Below, piece by piece: positions 7,704-41,603 of a stretch of DNA of 42,255 nucleotides. The stretch covers positions 1 through 42,255 of the forward strand of contig PFOR01000016.1 in the NCBI GenBank assembly GCA_002792635.1, read 5' to 3'. Source of the stretch: Candidatus Pacearchaeota archaeon CG_4_10_14_0_2_um_filter_35_33 (GTDB lineage: Archaea > Nanobdellota > Nanobdellia > Pacearchaeales > GW2011-AR1). A program made the translations under genes and the position numbers. The notes beneath the pieces are model-generated. The model did not search any database, was not told where the DNA came from, and saw only the letters and a list, made by a program, of their open reading frames with translations. Position 1 is the first letter of the stretch. Each line of letters begins with the position of its first letter.

Positions 7704-8606
7704 TTTATCTATATCTTTCAAATGTAAGTATTTTTTATTTGATAATTCTTTTACATATCTTTTTTTAACTTCTTCATTTTCTTCAATTCTTCCATTTAAC
7801 CATTCTGGTTGTTTCCAATCCTTTTCCCAATCCCAATTTATATAGCAAAATGCTTTTACAGCTTGATGAGTTTCGATCCATTTAAAATATGGTTTAAACC
7901 ACTCATCCCAGCTTTCTTTTCCTTTATCAACTCCTATTTTTGCAGGAGAAGATTCGCCTATCATTAGGGGCTTTTTATGTTTTTCTGCTTCTCTTATAAA
8001 ATCCTCTGTAACAACATCCTCATTATCCCTAAAATGTTTAACTCCAAACAAGTCGTTTCCAAACCAATCGACGTATTCATCTCCAGGATAGTACTCCATA
8101 ATTTTTATTATAGATTTTAATCTAGAATCAAATGCTGTGCAAGCGCACCATACAAAAGCTACATTATTACATTTTTCTTCCCTAAATAAATCAACTATAT
8201 GTTTCCATGCAGAAACAAAATCATTTGGATAATAATTATGTGTTGGATTATTAAATTCATAACCTATCCTTAAAAAAACAGGGTTTTTATATTCTTTTAT
8301 CTCTTTTATTAATTCTAAAATCTCTTCGTTATATTTTCCATCAGCGACTTGTTTGCATTGGTCACCCAATTCCTTAATCTTCAAATTTAATCCAATTTGG
8401 AGTATTAATTCTGTTGAAATTTTTTTTGCTTCATTAATCTTTTTTGAAAGCTTCTCTTTAACATCATTTATTCTATTATAAACCATATAAATAGCAGGCT
8501 TATAATCTTCTACTGATTCCCAATATTTCTTAAATTGTTCTGAACTTTGTCCTGCCCCGTGAATAACCTTTCCTGAAGAAGGTTCAAATTTCTGACTGAA
8601 ATACAT
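7692..8606 (-). CDS. GH26-like glycoside hydrolase
   Basis: Resembles family 26 glycosidases (beta-mannanase type, TIM barrel). The acid/base glutamate is in RIGYEFN (E117) and the nucleophile in LMIGESSP (E218), about 100 residues apart as expected in clan GH-A. Tryptophan-rich C-terminal segments (YINWDWEKDW) fit the substrate cleft. No signal peptide is visible, so it would act in the cytoplasm or leave by another route. It is the only gene of the cluster on the minus strand, convergent with the phosphotransferase and divergent from the next glycosyltransferase gene. It may trim or recycle the glycan. Confidence 0.77.
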   Translation of the reverse strand: MYFSQKFEPSSGKVIHGAGQSSEQFKKYWESVEDYKPAIYMVYNRINDVKEKLSKKINEAKKISTELILQIGLNLKIKELGDQCKQVADGKYNEEILELIKEIKEYKNPVFLRIGYEFNNPTHNYYPNDFVSAWKHIVDLFREEKCNNVAFVWCACTAFDSRLKSIIKIMEYYPGDEYVDWFGNDLFGVKHFRDNEDVVTEDFIREAEKHKKPLMIGESSPAKIGVDKGKESWDEWFKPYFKWIETHQAVKAFCYINWDWEKDWKQPEWLNGRIEENEEVKKRYVKELSNKKYLHLKDIDKLLE

Positions 8607-8645
8607 ATTAATATTAAAAAAGCCATATTTTTAATACTATCTAAT

Positions 8646-9721
8646 ATGAATACACAAAATGTGGAAAAAAAGACAAGCAGAAAAGTTAAAATGAAGAATA
8701 TCATGATTATCTCCTTAAATTCAGGAGGTACGATGGGACATGGAAAGATAATTACTTCTCTAGCTAATTTTCTATCACAAAAAAAGAAACATGTAACAAT
8801 TTTATCAGACATGCATTTTTCAAAGAACTTTAATATAAATAATAAAGTAAAGATAAAAAATCTTAAAAAAATACCTCACATAAATTATACTATTGGGGTA
8901 TGTGCCAATGCAACCAAAAAGACAAAATTTATGAATTTGCTAAAGAGAACAACATTGAATGTGTTATCTTTTCTACATTTTTTGATTTGAATCTTGTTAG
9001 GAAATTCAGAGAGGATAAGATTAAAACTATTCTTATTAGTTATCCGATTAGAGATACTTACAGATTAGCTCTTAAACAAAATAGAGCATATGCTACATTT
9101 GACAGAGTTATCACTCTTTATGAACCTTTATTCAAAGATAAGGAGATGTCGAATGAAATATTGGTAAATCCTCTTAAGATTACAAGTAAAGAAATAGCAA
9201 GTATTGATAAAAAGGACATTTTAGTCACATGTGGTGGTGGAGGTAGACCCTCTTCAAAATTATTTCTGAAAAAAACTTTTTCAGCACTAAAAAAAGTAAT
9301 TAGTAAGGACAAAAATATTAAAATTACAATAATAAAGGGCAACTTAAAATCAAATATTGCTCATGAAAATATTAACTCAATTATATGGACAAAGGATTTT
9401 GGTAGTGTCCTCTCTTCTTCTAAAATTATAATCTCAGAGGCAGGATATTTTACAATGTTAGACTTAATCAATTACAAAAAGAAAGCTATTTTAATTCCAG
9501 GAGAAAGAGTTATAGATAATCAAGAAATCCGAGCATTAAAATTAGAAGGATTAGGAATTGGAAAAGTATTTTTTCCTTTTGAAAAAGCATCAAAACTTTC
9601 TGATTTAATCACTGAGAATTTAAAAGATGAGGATTTGGATGAGGATAAATTCGAAGGAATATTAAGCAAGTTCAATAATTATCCTGACTTAAGTCAAGTA
9701 TTGTTGGAGGAAGTATTATGA
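8646..9721 (+). pseudogene. GT-B (MurG/UDP-glycosyltransferase-like) gene with one frameshift
   Basis: Two overlapping frames give one protein. The first frame (from 8646, or ATG 8691) encodes MIISLNSGGTMGHGKIITSLA, a GT-B N-terminal glycine-rich start, and runs to 8990. The second frame continues from before 8900 to 9721 and encodes the rest of the N-terminal domain (CVIFSTFFDL), LVTCGGGGRPS and a donor-site segment ISEAGYFTMLDLINYKK. The second frame has a stop at 8864-8866, so the shift (-1, or a one-base deletion) lies between 8867 and 8990; the GGGG at 8895-8898 and A-runs are candidates. It may be a real lesion, an assembly error or programmed frameshifting. ATGA overlap with the next gene. 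Confidence 0.66.
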
Positions 9722-10833
9722 GATTGATGTATATTTGTGGGATGTATGTTCCATCTCATGGGGGCGCGGAAATTAGCGTTTATTCACTCTTAAAGAAATT
9801 GCAAGAAAAATTTGAATGGGAAATTCTTGCAGTTACTGATGAAAGATATGAAAAAACTAAGGATCTTGAAGAGTTTAACAAAGTACCGTTATATACAACA
9901 TCTCATAATAATCGGGAAAAAGAAATTGAAAAAATGATTCTTAAATTTAAACCAGACGCAATCCTTACTCAATTAATGTGGAGTGATGTTGCGCTAAAAC
10001 TTGCCAACAATCATTCTGTTCCTTCAATTATGAGAGTATGTAAAGTACCCCTTGAGTTAAACCTTGCTGAAGGTTCTGAATACGCTCCAACCGCTATTAT
10101 TTCAACTTCTAACTCAGTTAAAAAATATGTTTTAGAGCATTGGAATAGAAAATCAGAAATAATTGAACCCCTTGTTGAAATTGAGAATTACATTATTAAA
10201 AAAGAGAATTTTGACCCATCTAAAAACAATCTTATTTTTATGTTCAATCCTTTACAAAGAAAAGGTGGATCAATTTTTAAAGAAATTGCAAAAAAATTAT
10301 CCTATGAAAGATTTGGGACGGTTCTTGGTTGGTCTTCACTTAAGGACGAGAATATTTCAAATAATTTTTCAAGCAAATACATTAGAAGAATAACTGAATC
10401 TGAAGGTTCCACTTTTGATGGTTCATTGCTAGAATATGTAGAATTTGATGATTGTGACAATGTCGAGATACTTCCTTCAGAAGATGACCCGAGAATCTTT
10501 TATGAACAAATTAAAGTTCTTCTAATTCCCTCCCAGTGGGAAGAAGCATTTGGCAGGGTTGCAATAGAAGCAATGGTAAATGGCATTCCAGTTATTGCAA
10601 GTAATGTTGCAGGACTAAAAGATCCTGTAGGAAATGGAGGGATACTTATTGAGAAGGACAATGTTGATGAATGGATTAATGAAATCTTAAGGTTTGATGA
10701 TAAAAAATATTATAAGAAAATCTCAGATAAGGCTAAAAACTGGGTTAGAGATAATTACTCTGAAAATAACATAGTTAAGGAGACTGAAAGTTTAATTAAA
10801 GATATTGTTAAAGGCTTTACTTCTCAACGATAA
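9718..10833 (+). CDS. GT4-family glycosyltransferase
   Basis: GT-B retaining glycosyltransferase. Seen: N-terminal MYVPSHGGAEISVYSLLK (glycine-rich acceptor-side loop, residues 9-26) and the C-terminal E-x7-E motif EAFGRVAIE (E276, E284) followed by AMVNGIPVIASNVAG. Length 371 aa is normal. It follows the frameshifted glycosyltransferase by an ATGA overlap. Its last 17 nt (10817-10833) overlap the end of the convergent transposase gene, so its natural C-terminus may have been altered by insertion. Confidence 0.86.
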   Translation: MRLMYICGMYVPSHGGAEISVYSLLKKLQEKFEWEILAVTDERYEKTKDLEEFNKVPLYTTSHNNREKEIEKMILKFKPDAILTQLMWSDVALKLANNHSVPSIMRVCKVPLELNLAEGSEYAPTAIISTSNSVKKYVLEHWNRKSEIIEPLVEIENYIIKKENFDPSKNNLIFMFNPLQRKGGSIFKEIAKKLSYERFGTVLGWSSLKDENISNNFSSKYIRRITESEGSTFDGSLLEYVEFDDCDNVEILPSEDDPRIFYEQIKVLLIPSQWEEAFGRVAIEAMVNGIPVIASNVAGLKDPVGNGGILIEKDNVDEWINEILRFDDKKYYKKISDKAKNWVRDNYSENNIVKETESLIKDIVKGFTSQR

Positions 10834-12040
10834 ACTCGCCTTTAATTCCCAATTCTAAAATCTCTTGAATTACAACACAAATATTATGACATAGGATTTT
10901 TAACAATAATTCATTAATTTGAGCAGTTTTAGTTTTGCTTCTCAAATTATCCTTAAATTTTGTTTTAATCATATGGAAACAAGTCTCGGCATTGCTTCTC
11001 TTGTGATAATGCTCAAGAAATTCGTCGTGCTTGTAAAGGAAATAATGATACATCTTTTTTCAGACAGCACAACCGCCTCTTTTTCCTGTAACATTCTTTT
11101 TGAATGGAATAAAAGGTATTGCTCCGACTTCTTCAATAACCTTAAAGTTTTCTCGTCCGTTGTATGCTTTATCTCCGCTTACTTCATTCATATTAAACAC
11201 TTCAGCAGTTTTCCTAACTAATTCTGCAAGTTGTGGGCTATCGTTTTCTTGTCCTTCTGTTATTTTAACTCCTGTAATAATATTAGTTTTTACTCCAGAG
11301 CATAAATGAGCTTTAAGCCAAATCCTATGTTTTCTTTCTTTACCCCATTTGTAATCAAACCACCTTGCAAATCTGCAAGTTGAAAATCCAGAGCTATCAA
11401 TAGTAAAATCGTTTTCAATTTCTCTTAATGGAGTTGAACTTACAGAGATTAACCCTTTTAGAATTGGTGTTAATTCTTCTTTGTTCATATAATTGCTTAC
11501 GCTCATATAGGTAGGCACGTTCTCAATTAATCCAAACTCTCTCGCTATCTTAACATCAGACATAAAACGCCTTAAACTAAAAGTAGAATATACTTTAAGA
11601 GCAGATGTAAAAATTATTTCTGAAATAGGCAAGTTTGGTCTTCCAAATTTATACTCTGGCTGTTTTACGCCATTGCACAAATCTCTTAACAACTTCATAA
11701 AGATTAATTTTTCGTTGGTTTGTGCTGTGTCGTATGCTTTCCAATCTTGTTTATATGTAACTCTTACGCCTTTTGTAGTTGTAATTTTACCTTCTTCATC
11801 TATTTGTTTCTTAACATAATATTCAACTGCATAGATATGTTTACATTTCTTCTTTCTTAACTCGCAATCGGGACAAGAGCAAACAGGATTTTCTTTATTT
11901 AATCTTACCTTATATGCTTTAAAAGAAGTTTGAGAGCCAATTACCCAAAAATCATTTTTCTTTGCTATTCTTCCTCTTTCAAAGATTAACTTTCCTCGTT
12001 CTTCTCGGCTTAATTTTCTTATATTCATTTCTTGCTTCAT
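10817..12040 (-). mobile_element. IS-type transposase (SWIM zinc finger + DDE domain) with in-frame TGA
   Basis: One continuous 408-codon frame interrupted only by TGA at 11060-11062. Before it: a SWIM zinc finger (C54, C56, C66, H68), then DDE residues D215 (FTIDSSGFS) and D290 (VSGDKAYNG). After it: MYHYFLYKHDEFLEHYHKRS with the third acidic residue in SNAETCF (E352), so the 326-aa truncated product would lack a catalytic residue. From memory of IS4-like transposases, the position before KKMYHYF is usually tryptophan, so TGA may be a TGG-to-TGA nonsense change or may be read through. No terminal inverted repeats or target duplication were found by eye. Confidence 0.8.
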
Positions 12041-27444: not shown

Positions 27445-27509
27445 TTAACCCGAACTTCTTGGCATGTGATAAGTTTTTGTTTTTGCTAAAAGGTTTTAGC
27501 GTTAATTGA
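27445..27509. repeat. Intergenic repeat R2, copy 2
   Basis: TTAACCCGAACTTCTTGGCATG and GTTTTAGCGTTAATTGA match 26245-26309. Here it spans the gap between the divergently placed 176-aa gene and the 3' end of the DUF5654-like gene. Confidence 0.5.
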
Positions 27510-27789
27510 ACCTTTTTGGATTGAGGTATTTTGAAGTTAGCAAGATTATTAGGATGGCTATTAGGGTTATTGCTATTGATGTTAGTATGCTTAACGCAGA
27601 TAGGGATGAGGTTGTGAAAATTGATTTTATTATTGATTCTGTTATGTCGAAGACTGTTTGTCTCCAGGTGAATGCGATTGTGAATCCTAGTGTGACAATA
27701 ATTAAGAATTTTATCTGGGATGCTAGTTCTTTTTTGAATTGATTCCCACCTACCAAGTAGCTTTTTGTTTTGTGCTTGAAACGCCTCAT
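27502..27789 (-). CDS. DUF5654-like small membrane protein
   Basis: 95 aa. A basic N-terminus (MRRFKHKTKSYLVGGNQFKK) leads to a first membrane helix FLIIVTLGFTIAFTWRQ, then a short loop and a second helix SILTSIAITLIAILIILL. The FTIAFTWRQ segment parallels ALTWKDF in the protein at 28032, marking both as one archaeal family. It begins 3 nt after the stop of the DUF3096-like gene. Function unknown. Confidence 0.68.
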   Translation of the reverse strand: MRRFKHKTKSYLVGGNQFKKELASQIKFLIIVTLGFTIAFTWRQTVFDITESIIKSIFTTSSLSALSILTSIAITLIAILIILLTSKYLNPKRFN

Positions 27790-28031: not shown

Positions 28032-28358
28032 TTATTTGGTTTCATCGGAATTCTGGGCCCATTTTGAGACTATTATTAGGCCTATTGCTCCAAAAATTGT
28101 AACAACAATTACTGTGTAAAGATCGGCAATATAGGGATATTTTTCTATATTTTCTACCTTGGTAAAATGAGTGATTGCTGCAAGAATGAAGTCTTTCCAT
28201 GTTAGTGCTATGACTAAACCAAGAGCAGTGATTAGTGCTGTAGATGTGTGTTTTTTGAATTCTGAGCCAAGCTTTTGGGTTTTTTTTAAGATCCTGATTT
28301 CTTTTTTTACCTGTTTTTCTACCTCTTTTTTCTGGGTCTTTGTCAATTGTTTCGACAT
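28032..28358 (-). CDS. DUF5654-like membrane protein
   Basis: 108 aa. A strongly basic, probably coiled-coil N-terminus (KTQKKEVEKQVKKEIRILKK) is followed by two membrane helices (ALITALGLVIALTWKDFI and YTVIVVTIFGAIGLIIV). Paralog of the protein at 27502. The start at 28358 has a T-rich AT upstream region facing the next, divergent locus. Confidence 0.7.
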   Translation of the reverse strand: MSKQLTKTQKKEVEKQVKKEIRILKKTQKLGSEFKKHTSTALITALGLVIALTWKDFILAAITHFTKVENIEKYPYIADLYTVIVVTIFGAIGLIIVSKWAQNSDETK

Positions 28359-28408
28359 ATCCTGTTAAATGTAAAGAGGTTTTTATATTTTTGCTATATT
28401 GGTTTTTT

Positions 28409-28650
28409 GGACAGGTGTTTGTTTTTTGGATTATTTGAGAAGTTTACCGACGATAAATGCTGTTTAAACAAGTGTTTAAATTTTTTTAATTTGATTAGAA
28501 GTTTTTGCATTATTTTTTGCTGTTTATTGGGTGTTTGTTTTTTATTTTTTTCAAAAAAGTGCTTGTTTTTTATTGTTTGGACAGGTGTTTGTTTGGTAAA
28601 AGGGGTGTTTAAGGATGTTTGTTTTGAAAAAAATAAGATAAACAGGTGTC
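28409..28650. promoter_or_regulatory. Repeat-rich upstream region with ACAGGTGTTTG motifs
   Basis: The gap 28359-28728 has no convincing gene. It carries GGACAGGTGTTTG at 28409-28421 and 28579-28591, AAACAGGTGTC at 28640-28650, a palindrome-like TTTAAACAAGTGTTTAAA at about 28463-28480, and several GGTGTTT fragments. The same motif recurs inside the next gene (AAACAGGTGTTTG at 28858-28870 and AAACAGGTGTCC at 28969-28980). This is the pattern of multiple binding sites for one DNA-binding protein, most likely the winged-helix protein encoded at 28729. Confidence 0.6.
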
Positions 28651-28693
28651 ATTTATGCTATAAAATATATTTGCCATTAGGGGCTTTGAAAAG

Positions 28694-28726
28694 GATATAT
28701 TTATATACTAGAGCTGTTTTAAACAG
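28694..28726 (+). promoter_or_regulatory. TATA box plus CTGTTTTAAACAG operator
   Basis: ATATATTTATATA (about 28694-28706) is a strong TATA box, and CTGTTTTAAACAG (28714-28726) is a near-perfect palindrome between it and ATG 28729, over the expected transcription start. Binding there would block transcription, consistent with autorepression. The related CTGTTCAAACAG occurs twice inside the gene (29033-29056). Confidence 0.6.
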
Positions 28727-28728
28727 GC

Positions 28729-29361
28729 ATGTTTTTTGGACTGTTTGGTAATAAAAGGGTGAAAAAGCTTGAAGATGAAACTAAAAAAAGTTTTCAGGCT
28801 GTAAAAGGTGATTTTGATAGGGTCGGAGTGTGGATTAAACACCTTGATGAGCAAGATAAACAGGTGTTTGATATTCTTGGACAGCTAAAAAGTGATATTT
28901 CGACGATAAAGGATGAACTTGAGGGGCTTAGGGATGCTGTTGAGATTATTGGATCAAGCAAGAAAATTAAACAGGTGTCCAAAAATGAGGCTGTTTATAT
29001 CAAACAACTGGGTGTTGATAGTGTCCAAAAACCTGTTCAAACAGCTGTTCAAACAGGCAATTTTCATCAAATATTGAATGGGTTGAGTTCTAATGAGAGG
29101 CTATTAGTGTTTACTTTAATGAATAGTGAGCTGAAGTTAAGTTATGAGGATTTAGCAAGATTGTTAGGAAAAGAGAGATCTACAATTAGGGGCCAAATAA
29201 ATAGCATAAAACAGAAAAGTGAGGGTCTTATTAGAGAGATTCGGGAGCCAAATGGGAAAAAGAGGGTGTTTGTAGAGGAAGAAATCAAGGAAAAACTGGT
29301 AAAATATGCAAAAGTGAGAGTTGGCAAAGGAAAGAAATTGGGAAAAAAGAAGAAAAAATAG
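28729..29361 (+). CDS. Coiled-coil plus winged-helix DNA-binding protein, copy 1
   Basis: 210 aa. Residues about 10-75 are a coiled coil (LEDETKKSFQAVKGDFDRVG, QLKSDISTIKDELEGLRDA). A repeat-coded linker (PVQTAVQT, about residues 102-109) follows, then a winged-helix domain (LSSNERLLVFTLMNSELKLS, YEDLARLLGKERSTIRGQIN, PNGKKRVFV) and a very basic tail. It resembles the protein at 29604 in architecture. The many repeats upstream and inside the gene suggest it binds its own locus, as a regulator or an iteron-binding initiator or partition protein. Confidence 0.62.
   Translation: MFFGLFGNKRVKKLEDETKKSFQAVKGDFDRVGVWIKHLDEQDKQVFDILGQLKSDISTIKDELEGLRDAVEIIGSSKKIKQVSKNEAVYIKQLGVDSVQKPVQTAVQTGNFHQILNGLSSNERLLVFTLMNSELKLSYEDLARLLGKERSTIRGQINSIKQKSEGLIREIREPNGKKRVFVEEEIKEKLVKYAKVRVGKGKKLGKKKKK
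29033..29056. repeat. Intragenic tandem 12-mer, two copies of CTGTTCAAACAG
   Basis: Two abutting identical 12-mers (29033-29044 and 29045-29056). Each resembles the promoter palindrome CTGTTTTAAACAG at 28714-28726. They encode PVQTAVQT in the linker between the coiled coil and the winged helix. Confidence 0.75.
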
Positions 29362-29502
29362 AGAAAAAAAGAGTAAAAGTGAGGGGAATTGGAAAAAGAT
29401 GAACAAAAAAGGAGAAATGAGGGGAAAAAGATCCATGGTTCAGGTAAAAGTGAGAGGGAATCGGAGCTAAGGATCAATTCTCTTGAGGGTGATTTGTAGT
29501 GC

Positions 29503-29566
29503 CTAAGAAAGAAATTTGGCTCTTTCCGAAGTCCTTGCAGCCAAATTTGGCCAAATTTCTTTTTAG
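29503..29566. terminator. Large hairpin between convergent genes
   Basis: CTAAGAAAGAAATTTGGC (29503-29520) pairs with GCCAAATTTCTTTTTAG (29550-29566) with one bulge, around a 29-nt loop. It lies between the 3' ends of the two coiled-coil winged-helix genes and may act as a two-way transcription stop or a small structured RNA. The rest of 29362-29603 holds only short AAAAGTGAG-type direct repeats. Confidence 0.5.
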
Positions 29567-29603
29567 TGTTAACTGAAGATAATTATTCGGTTACCCGGAT
29601 TAA

Positions 29604-30311
29604 TTAGATATCTCTTAGTTTTTGGATTGTTTCTAAAGACGCGAGTTCCTTAAGATTTTTTGATATTTTTAGGATAATCTTTTTGTTGTTTTCTTTTGTT
29701 TTCTCGACGGGAACTCCTTTCTTTATTATCTTACCTATGTGGTCTCTGATGGATGATTCTGTTATTTGGAGATATTGGGATAGGAGCTGGTAATCGACGA
29801 CAAGGCCTTGTTCTTCTAATTGGTATAATATTGCGAAAACTTTCATTTCTGTGCTCGTTAATGCTTGAAATTTAATACGAACTTCTTCCTTTATTTCATT
29901 AATTGTTTCTATAACTTTTGATGCTTGATTTAGCCTGTTGTCTGTCTGTCGATGTGTCTGTCTGTCTGTCGAAACCCCCTTATTTCTAGTGGAAATAACT
30001 GAATTTGAGCTTTTTACAGCTTCTAGAGGGTAATTAACTGTCGATGTGTCTGTCGATGTGTCGACAGGAAACGAAGGGGTGTCTATATTCGCCTGTCGAT
30101 GTGTCTGTCTGTCTAAGGTTCGTTTAAGCAAATTAAAGCTGACGTTATGTTCCTTTATATTTGCTTTAATTTCTTGTAATTCTTGATTCTGTTTCTCTAT
30201 TAAAGATTTAAGACCTGCTAGTTCAGTTTCTAGGTATTGGTAATTATAATATAAATTGTAAATGTCTTCCTTAGCTTTGTCGAAGGCTTGTCTTATCTTT
30301 TCTGGATTCAT
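29604..30311 (-). CDS. Coiled-coil plus winged-helix DNA-binding protein, copy 2
   Basis: 235 aa. A coiled coil (about residues 1-70: YQYLETELAGLKSLIEKQNQ and onward), a polar low-complexity linker (about 68-132) and a C-terminal winged helix (TSTEMKVFAILYQLEEQGLV, YQLLSQYLQITESSIRDHIG). The linker reads DRQTHRQ twice and VDTSTDTSTV once, yet all come from the same DNA repeat in two frames. Architecture mirrors the gene at 28729, which is convergent with it. Probably a locus-specific DNA-binding protein; a role in replication or partition is suggested by the embedded repeats and ORB-like sites. Confidence 0.62.
   Translation of the reverse strand: MNPEKIRQAFDKAKEDIYNLYYNYQYLETELAGLKSLIEKQNQELQEIKANIKEHNVSFNLLKRTLDRQTHRQANIDTPSFPVDTSTDTSTVNYPLEAVKSSNSVISTRNKGVSTDRQTHRQTDNRLNQASKVIETINEIKEEVRIKFQALTSTEMKVFAILYQLEEQGLVVDYQLLSQYLQITESSIRDHIGKIIKKGVPVEKTKENNKKIILKISKNLKELASLETIQKLRDI
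29947..30109. repeat. Iteron-like repeats inside the winged-helix gene
   Basis: TGTCGATGTGTCTGTC occurs exactly at 29947-29962, 30039-30054 and 30094-30109, and as TGTCGATGTGTCGACA at 30051-30066, with extra TGTC units beside them. On the coding (minus) strand the copies at 29947 and 30094 are read as DRQTHRQ and those at 30039-30066 as VDTSTDTST, a different reading frame. Conservation of DNA across frames points to a protein-binding or recombination function rather than to the peptide. Confidence 0.8.
29973..30080. other. Pair of ORB-like sites in opposite orientation
   Basis: Plus strand 30063-30080 reads GACAGGAAACGAAGGGGT, very close to Sulfolobus-type origin recognition boxes (a CAGGAAACG-A/G-AGGGGT core). 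The minus strand of 29973-29995 reads TTCCACTAGAAATAAGGGG, close to the TTCCA-S-TGGAAAC...GGGG form of euryarchaeal ORBs. The G-strings point outward, with about 70 bp including two iteron-like repeats between them. ORB consensus is from established knowledge; binding here is inference. Confidence 0.45.
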
Positions 30312-30335
30312 TGAATTTACCAGGTTTTTATAGAT

Positions 30336-30608
30336 TTAAGGATTATTGTTCTTGAAAACCGTGAATGCTTGATTGGATAGCCTCCATCTTTGCCTGCGTT
30401 TATAATCAAGCCCTTCCGGATTCTTATTGATTTCTGTTACTAGAAATTTTGATTTCAGGTCTTGGAGAAGAGCTTTGACAAACTCTTCGTCCCGGGCTAT
30501 CTCTTGGGCTATATGGGCTGTAAATGCTGATTGAGGAGATATAGAATATAAGTGGTGCAGAATTTGTTCTTGAATCTTGGCTTGCTTCTTGTTAGATATT
30601 TTTGGCAT
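30336..30608 (-). CDS. Small winged-helix protein
   Basis: 90 aa. NKKQAKIQEQILHHLYSISP, SAFTAHIAQEIARDEEFVKA and LLQDLKSKFLVTEI form a helix-turn-helix and wing, with a basic loop (DYKRRQRWRLSNQA). An ArsR/MarR-size DNA-binding domain without ligand-binding regions. It is upstream of, and on the same strand as, the gene at 29604 with a 24-nt gap, so the two may be co-transcribed. Confidence 0.62.
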   Translation of the reverse strand: MPKISNKKQAKIQEQILHHLYSISPQSAFTAHIAQEIARDEEFVKALLQDLKSKFLVTEINKNPEGLDYKRRQRWRLSNQAFTVFKNNNP

Positions 30609-33557: not shown

Positions 33558-34271
33558 ATGGAAGTTGAATATGTTGGGAAATGTTTGTTATTAAACATTG
33601 ATGGGAAGAAGATTTTAGTAATTGGAGACCTGCATCTTGGTTATTCTGAAAGTTTGAGGCGTTCTGGTGTTTTAATTCCTGGAGATTCTTTTAAGGAAGT
33701 TGTAAGAGAACTGGGTAAGATAATGGAAAAAACAGGAAATGTCAACGAGATTGTTCTTTTGGGAGATTTAAAACATGAGTTTGGAGGGATTTCAAATGCA
33801 GAATGGAGAGAGATAAAAGAGTTGTTAGATTATTTAAAGAAAAAAGGGAAAGTGATTATTGTTAAGGGAAATCATGATAAAATAACGGAAGTTATTACAA
33901 AACAGAAGGGATTAGGATTAGTTGATTATTATATTATTGATGGGGTCGCATTCGTACATGGCGATAGGAAGTTAGAAGAAAGTGAAATATATGATAAGAA
34001 AATAAAATATTGGGTTATTGGGCATGGGCATCCAGCTATTAAGATTACGGACAATGTTAAGGAGGAAAAGTATAAGTGTTTTTTAGTTGGAAAGTATAAG
34101 AAAAAAGATGTGATTATTGTTCCGAGTTTTTTTGATGTTAATCTTGGAAGTGATCCGAGGGATTTTGATTTGGGTTTGGCTTGGAAGTTTGATTTAATGA
34201 GGTTTGTGGTAAGAGTTATTGAAGGGTTGGATGTGTTGAACTTTGGAGAATTGGGAAAATTGAATTATTGA
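33558..34271 (+). CDS. Calcineurin-like metallophosphoesterase (Lhr-associated)
   Basis: 237 aa. Two-metal phosphoesterase motifs in order: GDLHLG (D24, H26), LLGDLKHEFGG, KGNHD, FVHGD and GHGHP. This is the small archaeal family often beside Lhr or DNA ligase and presumed to act on nucleic acid ends. All metal ligands are present. Its last 7 nt overlap the end of the convergent SecB-like gene. Confidence 0.88.
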   Translation: MEVEYVGKCLLLNIDGKKILVIGDLHLGYSESLRRSGVLIPGDSFKEVVRELGKIMEKTGNVNEIVLLGDLKHEFGGISNAEWREIKELLDYLKKKGKVIIVKGNHDKITEVITKQKGLGLVDYYIIDGVAFVHGDRKLEESEIYDKKIKYWVIGHGHPAIKITDNVKEEKYKCFLVGKYKKKDVIIVPSFFDVNLGSDPRDFDLGLAWKFDLMRFVVRVIEGLDVLNFGELGKLNY

Positions 34272-34693
34272 TTTGATTGACGAGTTAATGAAGGGATTCT
34301 TATATGGGATGGTAATCCAAGTTCATCTTGTAGTTGGAGTGCCTTTGGAGCACATTTTCTTAAAATAAAATTGTAAAGGAAGACCGTTGCATTTTTAGGG
34401 ATTTTTTTCTTTTTCCAGGATTTAATAATGTCTTTTGATTCTTCCTTAGATACATTTAGGGTTATTGCTCCCTCAAATAAGATTTGAGCCATAAAATCTT
34501 CTTTCTTTGTAGAAACATCTTTGTAATTTAAAATATGGGTAAATCTTAATTTGACTGCTTCGGTGTCCTTTAAAAGATCTAATTTTTCCTTTGAAATATC
34601 TTGAAATTCTATTTTTGCATCTACATTTATTTGTTTAGAATGTTTTTCTTTGTTCCCTTGTATTTTTGTAAAATTAAATCCGATGACTTGCAT
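34265..34693 (-). CDS. 142-aa protein, possibly SecB-like
   Basis: Alternating beta strands (INVDAKIEFQDI, AVKLRFTHILNY, AQILFEGAITLNVS) are followed by a helix (ATVFLYNFILRKCAPKALQL) and a final GLPSHIRIPSL. This order resembles SecB-fold chaperones, where strand, helix and a proline-rich end follow one another, but sequence identity is not evident. An export-chaperone or other binding role is a guess. Expression is supported by a TATA-like TTTATAAA just upstream on the minus strand. Confidence 0.45.
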   Translation of the reverse strand: MQVIGFNFTKIQGNKEKHSKQINVDAKIEFQDISKEKLDLLKDTEAVKLRFTHILNYKDVSTKKEDFMAQILFEGAITLNVSKEESKDIIKSWKKKKIPKNATVFLYNFILRKCAPKALQLQDELGLPSHIRIPSLTRQSNQ

Positions 34694-34988: not shown

Positions 34989-35126
34989 GTTGTGAGTAAA
35001 GAGGCTTTGTATTTAAATATTATGATAATGAAAAGAATTGATTTAGGGCATTTGTTGGATAGTTAAAATAAATTTAAGGACCCTGACCCTTTGATTTCTT
35101 ATGGAAAATATGAAAGGGTTTAAATA

Positions 35127-35296
35127 CTGGAGGTAAACAGGTTTTTTTAATTTTCTTTTTTAAAGTTTATTATATTATATTATATATATTATATTAATTA
35201 TTAATTAATATATGTATTAAAACAAGAACGTTCGTTTAATTTTGTTATTTATATTTTTTAATGAAATGGTTTCCAGTGGAAATAATGGTGTAGGGT
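35127..35296. other. Candidate replication origin (oriC) upstream of orc1/cdc6
   Basis: The 425-bp gap 34989-35413 has no gene. It contains TTTCCAGTGGAAA (35270-35282), a palindrome matching the core of archaeal ORB elements, followed by ATAATGGTGTAGGG. A weaker match, CTGGAGGTAAACAGG, lies at 35127-35141. Between them is an almost pure A+T tract (about 35143-35220, TATATTATATTATATATATT and more) suited to unwinding. Position next to orc1/cdc6 is the standard archaeal arrangement. Confidence 0.65.
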
Positions 35297-35413: not shown

Positions 35414-36622
35414 ATGGCACAGAAATTAGATAAAATATTTGATTCTTTTGTTGAAAATAATTTGTTTAAGGATAAGAGGGTTTTACAAACTAATTATACC
35501 CCCGATACTATTCCTCATAGGGATAATCAGATAGAAAATGTGGCTTCTATTCTTGCGCCCGCCCTTAGGGGAGACAGGGTGAGTAATTTGTTTATTTATG
35601 GGAAGACGGGGACTGGCAAGACATTAAGTGTTCAACATGTTACTAATGAATTAATGAAAAGGGTTAGCGATAGCAAAAGTGATAATCTAAAGGTGGTTTA
35701 TATTAATTGTAAGTTAAAAAAGATTGCAGATACAGAATATAGGATTCTTGCAGAAATAATAAATAGTTTAGGCGGCAGCGTTCCTATCACAGGCCTCCCT
35801 ACTGATGCAGTTTATAATAAGTTTGTGGATATGATTGATGATAAGAGGCAAAATGTTATTTTAATTTTGGATGAGGTTGATCAAGCGATTAAGAAAATAA
35901 GCGATAGCTTTCTTTATACATTAACAAGATTAAATAGTGACTTGAAGAATGCACAAATTGGAATAGTTGGCATTAGCAATAGTCTAACGTTTATGGATTG
36001 TTTAGACCCAAGGGTGAGGAGCAGTTTAGGCGAAGAAGAGTTGGTTTTTCCTCCTTATAATGCATTACAATTAATTGATATATTGAGAGAGCGATCTAAG
36101 ACTGCGTTTGTTGATGGTGTTTTAGGTGAGGAAGTTATTTCTAAGTGTGCTGCATATGCGGCCAGAGAACATGGAGATGCAAGAAGGGCTTTGGACTTAT
36201 TGAGGGTTGCAGGGGAACTGGCCGAGAGGACACAAAGCAAAAAAATAGAAGAAAAGCATATTGATGAGGCGAATAGTAAAATAGAAAAGGATAAAATGTT
36301 AGACATTATTGAAAATGAGCCAAGGCAGTTCCAGTTAGTTTTAATGGCTATAATGGATTTGACTGAAGATAAGAATTTTGATAAGATTTATACCGGAAAT
36401 ATTTATAATAAATATCAGGAAATTTGTGAAAAAACTAAGAATGAGATTTTAACACAGAGAAGGATTAGTGATATTATTGCTGAGTTTGACATGTTAGGCA
36501 TTATTAATGCAGACGTTGTGAGTAAAGGAAGGCAGGGCAGGACAAGAGTGATTAAGCTTATGTTATCTGAAAGTTTAAAGAAAAAAGCAAGAGAGATTTT
36601 ACTAGGCAATTTAAATATATGA
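35414..36622 (+). CDS. cdc6: Origin-binding initiator Orc1/Cdc6
   Basis: 402 aa AAA+ ATPase that recognises ORB elements and loads MCM. Seen: Walker A YGKTGTGKT (residues 62-70), Walker B VILILDEVDQ (about 150-159), sensor 1 GIVGISNSL, the arginine-containing RVRSSLGEEE, and a C-terminal winged helix (NEILTQRRISDIIAEFDMLG) for DNA binding. The TAA... AT-rich leader before it contains the candidate origin. It is 6 nt upstream of the DP1 gene and probably co-transcribed with it. Confidence 0.95.
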   Translation: MAQKLDKIFDSFVENNLFKDKRVLQTNYTPDTIPHRDNQIENVASILAPALRGDRVSNLFIYGKTGTGKTLSVQHVTNELMKRVSDSKSDNLKVVYINCKLKKIADTEYRILAEIINSLGGSVPITGLPTDAVYNKFVDMIDDKRQNVILILDEVDQAIKKISDSFLYTLTRLNSDLKNAQIGIVGISNSLTFMDCLDPRVRSSLGEEELVFPPYNALQLIDILRERSKTAFVDGVLGEEVISKCAAYAAREHGDARRALDLLRVAGELAERTQSKKIEEKHIDEANSKIEKDKMLDIIENEPRQFQLVLMAIMDLTEDKNFDKIYTGNIYNKYQEICEKTKNEILTQRRISDIIAEFDMLGIINADVVSKGRQGRTRVIKLMLSESLKKKAREILLGNLNI

Positions 36623-36628
36623 TGTTAA

Positions 36629-38179
36629 ATGAAGGATGAAATACTTAGTTTGGTTAGGGAGAAGGGTCTTTTATTAGAGAAAGCTTTGTTTGAAGTTTTA
36701 GATAGTTTTGACAGCCTTCAGGATGCTCGTGATTTTTTAGAGGGTTTGGAAAAAGCTTCTGGGAATAAGGTAATTACAGTTTCTAACCTATCTAAAAATT
36801 TTGAATATGTAAAAGAAGTAGTTAATCATTTACCCGGACAGGAGAGAGAAGTCGTGGAGAGATTTCTTGTTAAAGGAGGATTAAATTTAGAGATTACTAA
36901 AGAGAGAGAAGTCGTGGAGACGAAACCGACAAGGAAACTTGACTATAAGGTATTTTATGCTGATGGGAATAATGCTCGGAAGATAGAAGTGAGGGATTTT
37001 GTTTCCCATTTTAGAGTAAGATATCAAGCCTTACAAAGGATTTTAATGGCCCGGCCAGAGGTTCAACAGAATTTGATTTCACTAAATAAATTGGGAGTGA
37101 ATAGAGAAAGCTTTGTTTTTATTGGAATAGTCGCGGAGAAAAGAATTACAAAAAATAAAAATTTAATCATAAAGTTTGAGGACTTGACAGGTGAAATAAA
37201 TGCACTTGTTAAACCAGATAGTGATTGTTTTAAAGAGGTTAATGAATTGCAGATGGATGATGTGGTTGCTGTAAAAGCTTCTGGGAATAAGGAATTAGCA
37301 TTCATTTATAATATTTTTTGGCCTGAATCTATTTTGTTGGATAAAACTAGGTTTGATGAAGAGGTATGCGTTGCATTTTTGTCAGATATTCATGCAGGAA
37401 GTAAGAATCACCTTGGTAAGGAATTTCAGAAATTTATAAATTGGTTGAACGAGGATGAATTGGCTAAGAAAATAAAATATATGTTTCTTGTCGGGGATAA
37501 TATTGATGGCGTCGGTATTTTTCCAGGTCAAGAAAGACTTCTCGAAAGGACTAGTGCTAAGGAGCAGTATGAAATGCTTTCAGAATATTTAAAACAAGTT
37601 CCAAAAAACATAACTATGTTTATGTGTCCGGGACAACACGACGCGGTTAGGGTTCCTGAACCCCAACCAGTTATTGGAAGAGATTATGGGGAGGCTTTGT
37701 ATGATATTGATAATTTGGTTTTGGTTTCCAATCCTGCGATGGTTAAGTTGATGGAAAAGGATAAGGAGTTCAAGGTTTTGATGTACCATGGTGCGAGCAT
37801 TCATGTGTTCATTAATGAAATTGAAGAATTAAGATTGATGAAAGCTCATAAATGTCCGGCCAAGGCTATCAAACATATGTTAAAGAGAAGACATTTAGCG
37901 CCTATGCATGGGGTGGCTCATTCTATTGTTTATGTACCTCATTTGGAAAAAGACCCCTTGGTAATAGAGGAGGTTCCAGATGTTTTATGTATGGGAGAGG
38001 TGCACAGGTTGGATATCGATAGCTATAATGGTGTTAGGATAATTACTGGGAGTTGCTGGCAATCTCAGACAGAATATGAAGAAAAAATAGGGAATGTCCC
38101 AGAAGCATGCAAGGTCTCTATTTTAAATTTAAAGACAGGAGAAATAAAAATTTTAGACTTTAGCGAAGATGAAAACTAA
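36629..38179 (+). CDS. polB: DNA polymerase D small subunit (DP1), 3'-5' exonuclease
   Basis: 516 aa. An N-terminal helical region, an OB fold (FVFIGIVAEKRITKNKNLII) and a Mre11-like phosphoesterase domain with FLSDIHAGS, LVGDNIDGVG, CPGQHDAVR, MYHGASI, MHGVAHS and GEVHRLD, which supply the metal ligands for proofreading. Slightly shorter than the Pyrococcus subunit. The variable region contains ERVVE-type repeats coded by a duplicated 19-mer. It overlaps DP2 by 11 nt, giving coupled synthesis of both subunits. Confidence 0.95.
   Translation: MKDEILSLVREKGLLLEKALFEVLDSFDSLQDARDFLEGLEKASGNKVITVSNLSKNFEYVKEVVNHLPGQEREVVERFLVKGGLNLEITKEREVVETKPTRKLDYKVFYADGNNARKIEVRDFVSHFRVRYQALQRILMARPEVQQNLISLNKLGVNRESFVFIGIVAEKRITKNKNLIIKFEDLTGEINALVKPDSDCFKEVNELQMDDVVAVKASGNKELAFIYNIFWPESILLDKTRFDEEVCVAFLSDIHAGSKNHLGKEFQKFINWLNEDELAKKIKYMFLVGDNIDGVGIFPGQERLLERTSAKEQYEMLSEYLKQVPKNITMFMCPGQHDAVRVPEPQPVIGRDYGEALYDIDNLVLVSNPAMVKLMEKDKEFKVLMYHGASIHVFINEIEELRLMKAHKCPAKAIKHMLKRRHLAPMHGVAHSIVYVPHLEKDPLVIEEVPDVLCMGEVHRLDIDSYNGVRIITGSCWQSQTEYEEKIGNVPEACKVSILNLKTGEIKILDFSEDEN
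36842..36920. repeat. 19-bp direct repeat inside the DP1 gene
   Basis: GAGAGAGAAGTCGTGGAGA occurs at 36842-36860 and 36902-36920, exactly 60 bp apart and in the same frame, encoding EREVVE twice. It lies in the non-conserved linker before the OB fold, so it looks like a tolerated local duplication. Confidence 0.8.
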
Positions 38180-41100
38180 TTCCCATTTTGCACGTATAAA
38201 AAAGAAAGTTGATGAATATTATAATGTAGCAGAATCTGCACGTAGCAAGGGTTTGGATCCTGTTTCAAAAGTAGAGGTTCCTATCGCAAGCTCCTTGGCG
38301 GAAAAGGCCGTTGGGTTGATATCTGTTATGTATCCCCAATTACAGGATAAAAAGATTGTAAATCGGATATTGGAGCTGGAAAAAAAATATGGTCAATTAA
38401 GTATTTCTGTTTCAATGTTAATTGCCGAGGATATAGCAAAAGAAAAGTATTGTAAATTTAAAGATAAGATTGAGGCAATCGATGCAGGGGTAAGAGTTGG
38501 TTTTTCATATACTACTCTAGGTGTTGTTTCAAGCCCATTAGAGGGATTTACAGGTCTAAAATTAGGTAAGACAAGAGACGGGAGAGATTATTTCAAGGCT
38601 TATTTTTCTGGCCCTATTAGAAGCGCAGGAACCACCGCAGGGTGTGTTGTTTTGATGATTATCGATTATTTAAGAGAAATATTTGGTTATGCTAAATATG
38701 ATCCAAGTGAGGAAGAGGTTAAGAGATATATTACGGAAAATTATGATTATCATGAGAGAGTCACGAATTTACAGTATTTGCCTACGGAAGAAGAGATAAC
38801 TTTCCTTGCAAGGAGGCTCCCTATTCAAATTTCTGGTGAGCCTACTGAACAAAGAGAGGTTTCAAATTACAAGGATTTGGATAGAATTGAAACTAATTTT
38901 ATTAGGGGGGGAATGTGTTTGATTTTTTCTGAAGGTTTAGCACAGAAAGCTGCCAAAGGGTGGCGTTTGTTGAAGGGGGCAAAGGAGAAAGGCTTGCAAT
39001 CTTCGGGATGGAATTGGTTAGATGAATATATTGAATTACATTCTAAGAGGGAAAAGAAGGGGGATGATAGCAGTCCTACTTATATCAAAGATCTTGTTGC
39101 AGGAAGGCCCGTGTTTGGACATCCAGGTTCTTCAGGAAGTTTTAGGTTTAGATATGGAAGAGGAAGAACTTCTGGATTTTCTGCCACTTCGGTTCATCCA
39201 GCAACTATGGCTATTACAGACGGGTTCATTTCTTTTGGAACACAGTTAAAGATAGAAAAACCAACTAAGGGGTGTGCAGTTTCGTCTTGCGAAGGCATAG
39301 ATGGGCCAATTGTTAAATTGAGTGATGGAAGTGTTAGAAAACTCAAGGATTTTGATGAGGCTAAGAAAGTTTATTCTGATGTAGATGAAATAATTTATCT
39401 TGGGGATTTGTTGATGCCTTTTGGTGATGTTGCTAATAGAAACTATGATTTACTTAAATCAGGATATGTTGAGGAATGGTGGGCATTGGAAATGGAAAAA
39501 GCTGGAAAAAAAATAGATGATGAAAAGAATGTTAGTTTTGAAGACGCCTTAAATTATTCTGATAAATTTAACGTGCCCTTACATCCAAATTATATTTTTT
39601 ATTGGACCCAGATAACCTTGAAGGACTTTTATGGGTTGATTGATTGGATTGCTAGAGGTGTTGTCAAAGGAGATGATTTAATCTTACCATTTTCTTCAAA
39701 AAATATGGAACGCTTTGAAAAGGGGAAGAGAACTTTGGAGCTGATAGGTTGCGAGCATAGTATAGGAGTGGAAAATGTTATTGTTAAGGGAAGTGAGGCA
39801 AAATCGCTTTTAACAAATCTAGGATTGGAATTCAAGGAAGGAGATTTGGAAAAAAATGTTGATGAAATTATAAAGAAGATGGATAAAGAAAAAGGCGTTT
39901 TAGAAAATATTAATCTTTTTTCAAGATTTAAAATTAAAGATAAGGCTGGGTCTTTTATCGGGGCAAGAATGGGCAGACCTGAAAAGGCAAAATTAAGAAA
40001 ATTAACGGGAAGTCCACATGTATTGTTTCCCGTTGGTGTTGAAGGAGGGAGATTAAGAAGTGTTCAAGCTGCTTATGAGGTTGGGAGGGTTAAGGCAGAG
40101 TTTCCTAATTATTTTTGTAAAAAGTGTGAAGAAGAAAGCGTTTACCCCAAATGTGTGAAATGTGGCGAGAGTTGCAAGAAAATGCATTATTGTTTTGTTT
40201 GTGGAAGGAGTTCAGATGACAAATGTAAACAGCATGAAAGAGACTCGCAGTATAGGGAGAGGAGAATAGATATTAGACACTATTTTGATGTGGCTAAGAA
40301 GTCTACAGGAGTCCGGTTAGATGATCTGCCCGTCGCGGTTAAAGGCGTTAGGGGGACAAGCTCAGAAGAGCACGATTGTGAAAATCTTGCAAAAGGCTTG
40401 TTGAGGGCCAAATATGACTTGCATGTGAATAAGGATGGCACCATAAGATATGATGTTACTGAAATGCCTATAACTCACTTTAAGTCCGTGGAAATTGGTA
40501 CAAGTATAGAAAAACTAAAGGAGTTAGGATATACTGAAGATGTGAATGGGGCTGAATTGGTTTCTGGAGATCAGACAGTTGAATTATTCCCTCACGATAT
40601 TATTTTACCTTCTTGTCCTGTTACACAAGATGAAAGGGCTGATGATGTGTTTGTGAATGTGGCTAAATTTGTTGATGATGAATTAGAAAAAATTTACAGG
40701 TTACCCAGATTTTTCAATGTTGAAACAAGAGATGATTTAATCGGCACTTTATTTGCTTGCATCGCACCACATATCTGTACCGCAACAGTTGGAAGACTGA
40801 TTGGATTTTCTAAAACCCAAAGTTTGCTCGCAAGTCCCTACATGCATGCAGCCATGAGAAGGGATTGTGATGGAGATGAAGCAGCAGTTATCTTATTGAT
40901 GGATACTCTTGTTAATTTCTCCAGGAAATTTTTGCCCGCCCATAGAGGTGGTACACAGGATGCTCCGCTTGTTTTAAACTTTAAAATTAATGCAGGAGAG
41001 GTTGATGACCAGATACTGGATTTTGATTGTGGCAGTTATCCTTTAGAATTATACGAGTTTTCAGAACAAGGAAAACATTCTTCAGAGGTTAAGATTGAAA

Positions 41101-41603
41101 TGATAAGTGACAGGTTGAGAGATGGAAAAGACCCTTATACAGGAATAGGCTTTACTCATAAAACAGACAATTTTAATAATGGGTGTTTGAATTCATCTTA
41201 TAAGTTTTTACCCACAATGGAAGACAAAGTGAGCAAGATGATGGCGCTTTGTGAAAAAATTAGAGCTGTGGATACAACAGATGTTGCCCGATTGGTTATA
41301 GAAAGGCACTTTATTAGGGATACAAAAGGCAATTTTAGAAAATTTTCAATGCAATCTTTTAGGTGCGTAGGTTGTAATAGCAAGTTCAGGAGACCTCCCT
41401 TAACGGGAAGATGTACTAATTGTGGAGGAAAGATAATATTTACTATTTCCGAGGGCAGTATCATCAAGTATTTAGAAAAGGCCTTGAGATTGGCCAGGGA
41501 TTACCATGTAAGCGAATACCTATTAGAATGTCTTGAGCTGACAAAGAAGGATATCGAGAGCATGTTTGGAAAGGAGAAAGAGAAACAGACTACTTTGTTT
41601 TAA
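38169..41603 (+). CDS. polC: DNA polymerase D large subunit (DP2), catalytic
   Basis: 1144 aa, uninterrupted, with no intein. The double-psi beta-barrel active site is RRDCDGDEAAV with D901 and D903; many homologs have Asn where the first Asp (899) is. Zinc modules: CKKCEEES...CVKCGESC and CFVCGRSSDDKC around residues 645-680, and CVGCNSKF...CTNCGG near the C-terminus. The protein ends in KQTTLF, a PCNA-interacting (PIP) box. It is the processive replicase together with DP1. Confidence 0.96.
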   Translation: MKTNSHFARIKKKVDEYYNVAESARSKGLDPVSKVEVPIASSLAEKAVGLISVMYPQLQDKKIVNRILELEKKYGQLSISVSMLIAEDIAKEKYCKFKDKIEAIDAGVRVGFSYTTLGVVSSPLEGFTGLKLGKTRDGRDYFKAYFSGPIRSAGTTAGCVVLMIIDYLREIFGYAKYDPSEEEVKRYITENYDYHERVTNLQYLPTEEEITFLARRLPIQISGEPTEQREVSNYKDLDRIETNFIRGGMCLIFSEGLAQKAAKGWRLLKGAKEKGLQSSGWNWLDEYIELHSKREKKGDDSSPTYIKDLVAGRPVFGHPGSSGSFRFRYGRGRTSGFSATSVHPATMAITDGFISFGTQLKIEKPTKGCAVSSCEGIDGPIVKLSDGSVRKLKDFDEAKKVYSDVDEIIYLGDLLMPFGDVANRNYDLLKSGYVEEWWALEMEKAGKKIDDEKNVSFEDALNYSDKFNVPLHPNYIFYWTQITLKDFYGLIDWIARGVVKGDDLILPFSSKNMERFEKGKRTLELIGCEHSIGVENVIVKGSEAKSLLTNLGLEFKEGDLEKNVDEIIKKMDKEKGVLENINLFSRFKIKDKAGSFIGARMGRPEKAKLRKLTGSPHVLFPVGVEGGRLRSVQAAYEVGRVKAEFPNYFCKKCEEESVYPKCVKCGESCKKMHYCFVCGRSSDDKCKQHERDSQYRERRIDIRHYFDVAKKSTGVRLDDLPVAVKGVRGTSSEEHDCENLAKGLLRAKYDLHVNKDGTIRYDVTEMPITHFKSVEIGTSIEKLKELGYTEDVNGAELVSGDQTVELFPHDIILPSCPVTQDERADDVFVNVAKFVDDELEKIYRLPRFFNVETRDDLIGTLFACIAPHICTATVGRLIGFSKTQSLLASPYMHAAMRRDCDGDEAAVILLMDTLVNFSRKFLPAHRGGTQDAPLVLNFKINAGEVDDQILDFDCGSYPLELYEFSEQGKHSSEVKIEMISDRLRDGKDPYTGIGFTHKTDNFNNGCLNSSYKFLPTMEDKVSKMMALCEKIRAVDTTDVARLVIERHFIRDTKGNFRKFSMQSFRCVGCNSKFRRPPLTGRCTNCGGKIIFTISEGSIIKYLEKALRLARDYHVSEYLLECLELTKKDIESMFGKEKEKQTTLF

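Follow-up and report, generated by a model that had tools for sequence, protein, structure and literature searches.

The window analysed here is the whole of a 42,255 bp contig (PFOR01000016.1), one of the 27 contigs of the 777-kb genome of Candidatus Pacearchaeota archaeon CG_4_10_14_0_2_um_filter_35_33. It contains a convergent pair of genes for two similar proteins, here termed A and B, a few kilobases from the genes for the initiator Orc1/Cdc6 (orc1/cdc6, below cdc6) and for PolD. The A-B locus probably (at roughly 0.6) forms the origin core for chromosome replication in the Pacearchaeota and, as regards B, in related families of the class, with the origin lying within coding sequence. The main feature of the locus was an origin recognition box (ORB) inside gene B, which did not figure in a preliminary description of this DNA.

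The comparison was based on an order-level set of 85 loci from eight families, the window included, and on a separate set of 76 named loci that overlaps it. Profile and pattern searches covered 104 genomes of the order, 140 genomes in all, and 374 genomes of the class.

The element in the B linker had the order consensus TTTCCANWGGAAATNNNGGGGTT. All 85 B genes of the order contained the sequence TTCCANNGGAAAYNNNGGGGTT at two or fewer mismatches, and in 66 of them it was perfect. This element fits the published common ORB motif TCCA[CG]T[TG]GAAA[TC][GA]AAGGGGT, including the G-string (PMC4164010); the archaeal ORB consensus has also been quoted as CTTCCAGTGGAAACGAAAGGGGT (PMC4153887). By motif, the element in the B linker is an archaeal ORB and a predicted Orc1/Cdc6 site. 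Most order genomes contained a single exact match to the ORB 20-mer, located in B, and one or two at most were usual. The reversed ORB pattern, used as a specificity control, had zero matches in all 140 and all 374 genomes. In CP061211 and G088, two single-contig genomes fetched whole, the sole other exact match was upstream of cdc6. The element was thus both rare and close to orc1/cdc6. Outside the order, among the matches listed for a sample of genomes with a listed B, 20 of 22 exact ORBs were in B and on the strand of B.

The ORBs of B were compared with the sites near cdc6. Across the pair loci, B contained 69 perfect and 23 one-mismatch 22-mers (92 at one mismatch or fewer), whereas no 22-mer at this level was found in the 700 bp upstream of cdc6, where sites with two to three mismatches were present in 42 of 43 loci. 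The B ORB is the main ORB of the genome and usually the only perfect one, the cdc6 sites being weaker. At four loci (L111, L123, L125, and L076) a further ORB close to the consensus was located 100-250 bp 5' of A. In three class genomes with no detected B, two to three exact ORBs were found within about 150 bp (G106:C2:7247-7387, G109:C25:19887-20033, and G119:C12:52177-52252), and these clusters resembled ordinary archaeal origins.

The sites near cdc6 also admit a regulatory explanation, in which the working origin lies upstream of cdc6, the B ORB controls B or titrates Orc1/Cdc6, and A and B are autoregulated regulators of replication or the cell cycle. ORB-like sites were nearly constant 5' of cdc6, A-type repeats were found 100-250 bp 5' of A, both proteins have MarR/Lrs14-like winged helices, and in Haloarcula hispanica a separate ORB cluster exerts negative control over an origin, probably through titration of Cdc6 (PMC3936714). 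Such a role is nonetheless considered unlikely, because the B ORB was the strongest and most conserved while the cdc6 sites were degenerate, because a single high-affinity site would titrate little (the Haloarcula cluster has 11 ORBs), and because the skew origin of CP061211 was nearer to the pair than to the cdc6 ORB.

The origin position in CP061211, a complete chromosome, was estimated from strand-corrected third-codon skew with bootstrap and permutation, as raw GC skew uncorrected for strand was dominated by drift. Third-codon keto skew placed the origin at 506 kb (95% confidence interval 489-517 kb), and GC skew placed it at 507 kb with limits of 377-515 kb, wide on the lower side; the permutation p value was <1/300. 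In 97-99% of bootstraps the B ORB (510,254) was closer to the estimate than the cdc6 ORB (525,203) was. This single good chromosome is strong but not sufficient evidence for the origin position.

Codon use in the linkers indicated that the DNA itself is conserved. Within the B linker peptide STGNxGV, Ser was TCC in 85/85 cases, one Gly was GGA in 82/82, the other Gly was GGG in 83/85, and Val was GTT in 81/81. A second ORB in another reading frame was located 43 bp away in seven genomes. One locus (L115) contained two identical 22-mers read as VPQEIRG and as STGNKG, and another (L063) contained a perfect ORB copy on the opposite strand. Because the same ORB recurs in other frames and on the other strand, DNA rather than peptide is under selection; no constraint on the peptide could give rise to such a pattern. 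The linker repeats of A read ...KQTAV..VQTAVQTAVQT and used CAA, ACA, GCT, and GTT/GTC nearly exclusively. Among relatives, Gln in the A repeats was CAA in 294 of 305 cases (346 of 601 elsewhere), Thr was ACA in 290 of 308, and Ala was GCT in 107 of 109. Judged from these codons, the linker DNA of both A and B is under DNA-level selection.

It could be supposed instead that the linker repeats are conserved as a functional low-complexity peptide (STGNxGVPTDRQT... in B, VQTAVQTAVQT in A), the DNA repeats and the likeness to an ORB being by-products. The peptides were themselves highly conserved. This explanation was rejected as highly improbable, given that synonymous sites were frozen, that one DNA motif was read in various frames and strands, that A-type motifs were also present in non-coding DNA, that other families with the ORB coded other repeat peptides, and that the linker was predicted to be disordered.

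Repeat significance was assessed by comparing match counts with expectation over 100 shuffles for each repeat. For the B-type repeat 19 matches were counted where 3.9 were expected, a number that 0 of 100 shuffles attained. For the A-type repeat there were 10 matches where 3.05 were expected, attained in 1 of 100 shuffles, and eight of the 10 were located at 28409-29050. Eight-mers of the A linker were enriched in the non-coding DNA 100-250 bp 5' of A (where coverage rose to as much as 0.24, compared with 0.017; p 1e-14; 75 of 85 loci), and in CP061211 the A-type linker motifs were mostly at the A-B locus. Between the A linker and the upstream sites, the choice of TGTCC or TGTT was correlated (p 0.001), whereas that of CAGCTG or CAGGTG showed no significant correlation (p 0.19).

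In B, copies 1 and 3 of the repeat coded DRQTHRQ, and copy 2 differed. Within the order the B repeat units were CAGACA, TCGACA, or CCAACA. For the TCGACA and CCAACA types, the unit adjacent to the ORB was of the type found elsewhere in the same gene (18/2 vs 8/36, Fisher 6e-8). Parsimony gave 19 changes of site type, and five well-supported independent pairs included a mean of 3.8 concordant and 0 opposite. In other families the ORB was kept and the repeats after it became CAATCAAT (L145), ATGCAGAC (L146), or ATCAACA (L147). On this pattern, the repeats beside the ORB are assigned to B and differ between lineages. Since they vary by lineage while the ORB is fixed, the locus offers a natural record of protein-DNA co-evolution. 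Whether the case extends to a chromosome origin embedded in the genes of two paralogous initiator-like proteins, with protein specificity and coded repeats changing together across the archaeal class, is an even call.

The preliminary description had noticed open reading frames (ORFs) for A, B, and a third small protein, C, and had proposed that A and B look alike, that their linkers are coded by repeats, and that a small winged-helix gene precedes B. These observations were upheld. The three ORFs were present, and C was a conserved neighbour upstream of B. Profile-profile comparison (hhalign) showed A and B to be homologous in both the N-terminal coiled coil and the winged helix-turn-helix (wHTH), with a probability of 97.3 and an E value of 2.5e-11. 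Structure prediction gave both proteins the same order of parts. In the AlphaFold models, A had a helix at 7-77, disorder at 80-109, and a winged helix at 112-181, and B had a helix at 3-66, disorder at 69-122, and a helix plus winged helix at 126-234. Each model thus combined a coiled coil with one winged helix, and the disordered segment coincided with the repeat-coded segment in both. From profiles and models, A and B are convergent paralogues sharing a coiled coil, a linker, and a winged helix. Within the order, neither unrelated folds nor lone, repeat-free homologs in unrelated contexts were encountered.

Neither A nor B reached a cut-off in Pfam or NCBIfam, and a sequence search of solved structures returned nothing for them beyond generic coiled-coil and HTH matches. 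Fold matches of the winged helices were likewise generic (MarR, AbfR2/Lrs14, and SmtB types). The shared large hairpin that had been described between the two genes was present as an inverted repeat, but of 13 bp and with modest fold significance (z -1.77). With its ordinary terminator-like look, it was rejected as a key feature.

Of the 140 genomes searched, 91 had relatives of A at E<=0.001, with order members at E<1e-30. Among the 104 order genomes, 89 contained A and about as many contained B, nearly always as a single copy. Many order genomes are incomplete assemblies, which bears on these counts; presence was in roughly as many genomes as assembly completeness permits. The named GTDB relatives of A were mostly labelled Candidatus Pacearchaeota or Nanoarchaeota. 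A profile search of the 374 class genomes found B-like genes in 249 (E<=1e-5), and many families outside the order gave strong matches over the full length. The genes for A and B were convergent in all 85 order loci and in all 76 named loci, the two sets overlapping. Where the fetched stretch extended to cdc6, nearly all order loci had it beyond B with its orientation unchanged. The recurrent gene order was A> <B <C (Lhr> phosphoesterase>) <u34265 cdc6> DP1> DP2>, with Lhr and the phosphoesterase missing in many loci. In the window, cdc6 started 5.1 kb and PolD DP1 6.3 kb past B, in agreement with the distance of about 5 kb first reported, and this synteny was conserved across the order. The A-B pair belongs to the core chromosome of Candidatus Pacearchaeota, as a single-copy locus.

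This distribution bears on the proposal, made in the preliminary description, of a plasmid-style maintenance module with its own binding sites. A real module with self-contained, predicted DNA sites was supported, but its plasmid style was not. A plasmid or virus module captured by the chromosome would agree with binding sites within genes, a common trait of certain plasmid and phage replicons, and with weak PHROG matches that included replication initiation families (phrog_428, 5/27 members). Set against this, A-B was single-copy, syntenic, and near-universal in the order, B had no match in 72,556 plasmid records, and the neighbourhood contained no partition NTPase of the ParABS, SegAB, or TubRZ type (ParA-like genes were found elsewhere in the genomes). 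For these reasons a plasmid origin of A-B was rejected, and capture is very improbable, an ancient capture being conceivable. As the repeats accompany an ORB, chromosome replication initiation is indicated rather than plasmid maintenance.

Several neighbouring and outlying loci were also recorded. The ORF u34265 (window 34265-34693, - strand; 142 aa), conserved between B and cdc6, was uncharacterised, had no family above cut-off, and also adjoined B in other families (L144, L145, and L146). Two DUF5654 small membrane proteins (27502-27789 and 28032-28358, - strand) were encoded directly left of A, pointing away from it, and recurred in relatives. Locus L144 (G118, same class, outside the order) was the one exception to the convergent arrangement: its A-like and B-like genes (8460-10130) share a strand, in tandem, with a two-mismatch ORB in B. 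At L148 (G111; 8206-8769) the only such gene, without ORB or repeats, encoded a coiled-coil winged-helix protein distantly similar to A and B and possibly an outlying member. An ORF at window 11060-12040 (- strand), in which the N-terminus resembles a SWIM zinc finger and another region a transposase, was read by eye as an apparent mobile-element remnant.

An origin-proximal centromere was also considered, with A and B acting in segregation as adaptors, spreading along or bridging their own parS-like repeats, and the ORB coupling segregation to replication. The combination of coiled coil and winged helix, the origin-adjacent repeat arrays, and the sites within the binding protein's own gene are compatible with this role. 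In Bacillus subtilis, a parS site lies within spo0J. ParA-like ATPases and SMC were encoded in the genomes, and the phage centromere-binding protein TubR was a weak fold match (E 0.02). In contrast, the locus had no ParA or TubZ-type partner, the ParA-like genes being elsewhere, an invariant ORB would be unexpected, and the wHTH fold matches were generic. This role is quite improbable, although regulation or titration and origin-proximal segregation are both live rivals of an origin at the A-B locus.

If the A-B locus is the origin core, Orc1/Cdc6 would bind the ORB in the linker-coding part of gene B, and multimers of B would bind their own repeats, abutting the G-rich end of the ORB. A would bind its own repeats within gene A and upstream of it, in an array about 1-2 kb away. 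As paralogues, A and B may dimerise or oligomerise, possibly pairing by their coiled coils, to form a nucleoprotein complex that would help to place Orc1/Cdc6 and MCM loading or to regulate its timing. The sites near the A promoter would let A regulate itself. One stretch of DNA thus appears to double as gene and landing site.

Several observations weigh against an origin at this locus. Mostly one strong, intragenic ORB was present, whereas known archaeal origins usually have several around an AT-rich element, and no clear AT-rich element stood out at the locus. ORB-like sites were also found upstream of cdc6, the textbook location. In the second single-contig genome, G088, the skew measures contradicted each other, and a pooled skew step at the pair was seen only for + strand genes and was confounded by gene identity. 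The association of B site types depends on few independent evolutionary events. The archaea concerned are tiny and uncultured, and the locus is known from sequence.

Table 1. Positions of the features of the A-B locus and of the cdc6-PolD region in the window.
Feature	Position	Strand	Remarks
Protein A	28729-29361	+	210 aa; coiled coil, repeat-coded disordered linker, winged helix
Protein B	29604-30311	-	235 aa; coiled coil, repeat-coded disordered linker, winged helix
Protein C	30336-30608	-	90 aa; small winged-helix (wHTH) protein, same strand as B
Predicted ORB inside B	29973-29994 (or 29975-29994)	-	TTCCACTAGAAATAAGGGGGTT; 1 mismatch vs order consensus; published consensus PMC4164010
Degenerate ORB-like site inside B	30060-30081	+	GTCGACAGGAAACGAAGGGGTG; 3 mismatches; opposite orientation; same offset in sister species
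B-type repeat, copy 1	29946-29972		CTGTCGATGTGTCTGTCTGTCTGTCGA; abuts ORB
B-type repeat, copy 2	30038-30064		codes STDTST
B-type repeat, copy 3	30093-30119		
A-type sites upstream of A	28409-28420, 28466-28477, 28579-28590, 28640-28651	+	RRACASSTGTYY; non-coding
A-type sites within gene A	28858-28869, 28969-28980, 29027-29038, 29039-29050	+	linker-coding
Inverted repeat between the convergent genes	29508-29520/29550-29562		perfect, 13 bp; terminator-like; fold z -1.77
ORB-like sites upstream of cdc6	35087-35106, 35271-35290	-, +	
orc1/cdc6 initiator gene	35414-36622	+	TIGR02928, 430 bits
PolD small (DP1) and large (DP2) subunits	36629-41603	+	

No description of a DPANN or Pacearchaeota replication origin was found in the open-access PMC literature. 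The A-B locus provides a concrete, testable origin candidate for the Pacearchaeota and much of the class, and names two uncharacterised proteins, A and B, as likely origin factors. It is also a case in which coding DNA would hold two messages together, and the ORB plus B could mark the origin in metagenome-assembled genomes.

In phage lambda, the O gene contains the binding sites of the initiator within its own gene, where they code the interdomain linker. Likewise, in RepA_N plasmids such as pSK41, the Rep boxes are central in rep and code a linker (PMC5703833). The repeats within the A and B genes also coded an interdomain linker, and the predicted binding of A and B would place their sites centrally in their own genes. 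The present locus differed in being on a cellular chromosome, in involving two paralogous genes, and in including a box for the host Orc1/Cdc6, and no RepA_N or O homology of the proteins was found (no Pfam, NCBIfam, or convincing PHROG match).

Among archaeal systems, WhiP is a winged-helix protein likewise encoded beside an origin, Sulfolobus oriC3 (PMC4010727). Compared by description, WhiP is Cdt1-related and oriC3 is without an ORB, whereas A and B each combine a coiled coil with a single predicted winged helix, and their genes come with intragenic repeats and an ORB. UBP, which binds ucm at Sulfolobus origins (PMC12141716), resembles the predicted role of A and B as a non-Orc1 protein binding an essential origin element. 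A nucleoid protein, UBP has hundreds of sites, in contrast to the concentration of A-type motifs seen in CP061211. The oriC2D cluster of Haloarcula hispanica (PMC3936714) similarly has ORBs apart from a cdc6-adjacent origin, but it comprises 11 intergenic ORBs, whereas the present locus usually has one near-perfect, intragenic ORB. Because Ori-Finder 2 restricts its scan to intergenic DNA (PMC4164010), a site such as the B ORB would be missed. The A-B locus shares with the archaeal ORB-type oriC (PMC4010727, PMC4164010) an ORB with a G-string, the orc1/cdc6 and PolD neighbourhood, and, in CP061211, a skew extremum. It differs in that the strongest ORB was within a conserved coding gene, usually as one strong copy, and abutted lineage-specific repeats.

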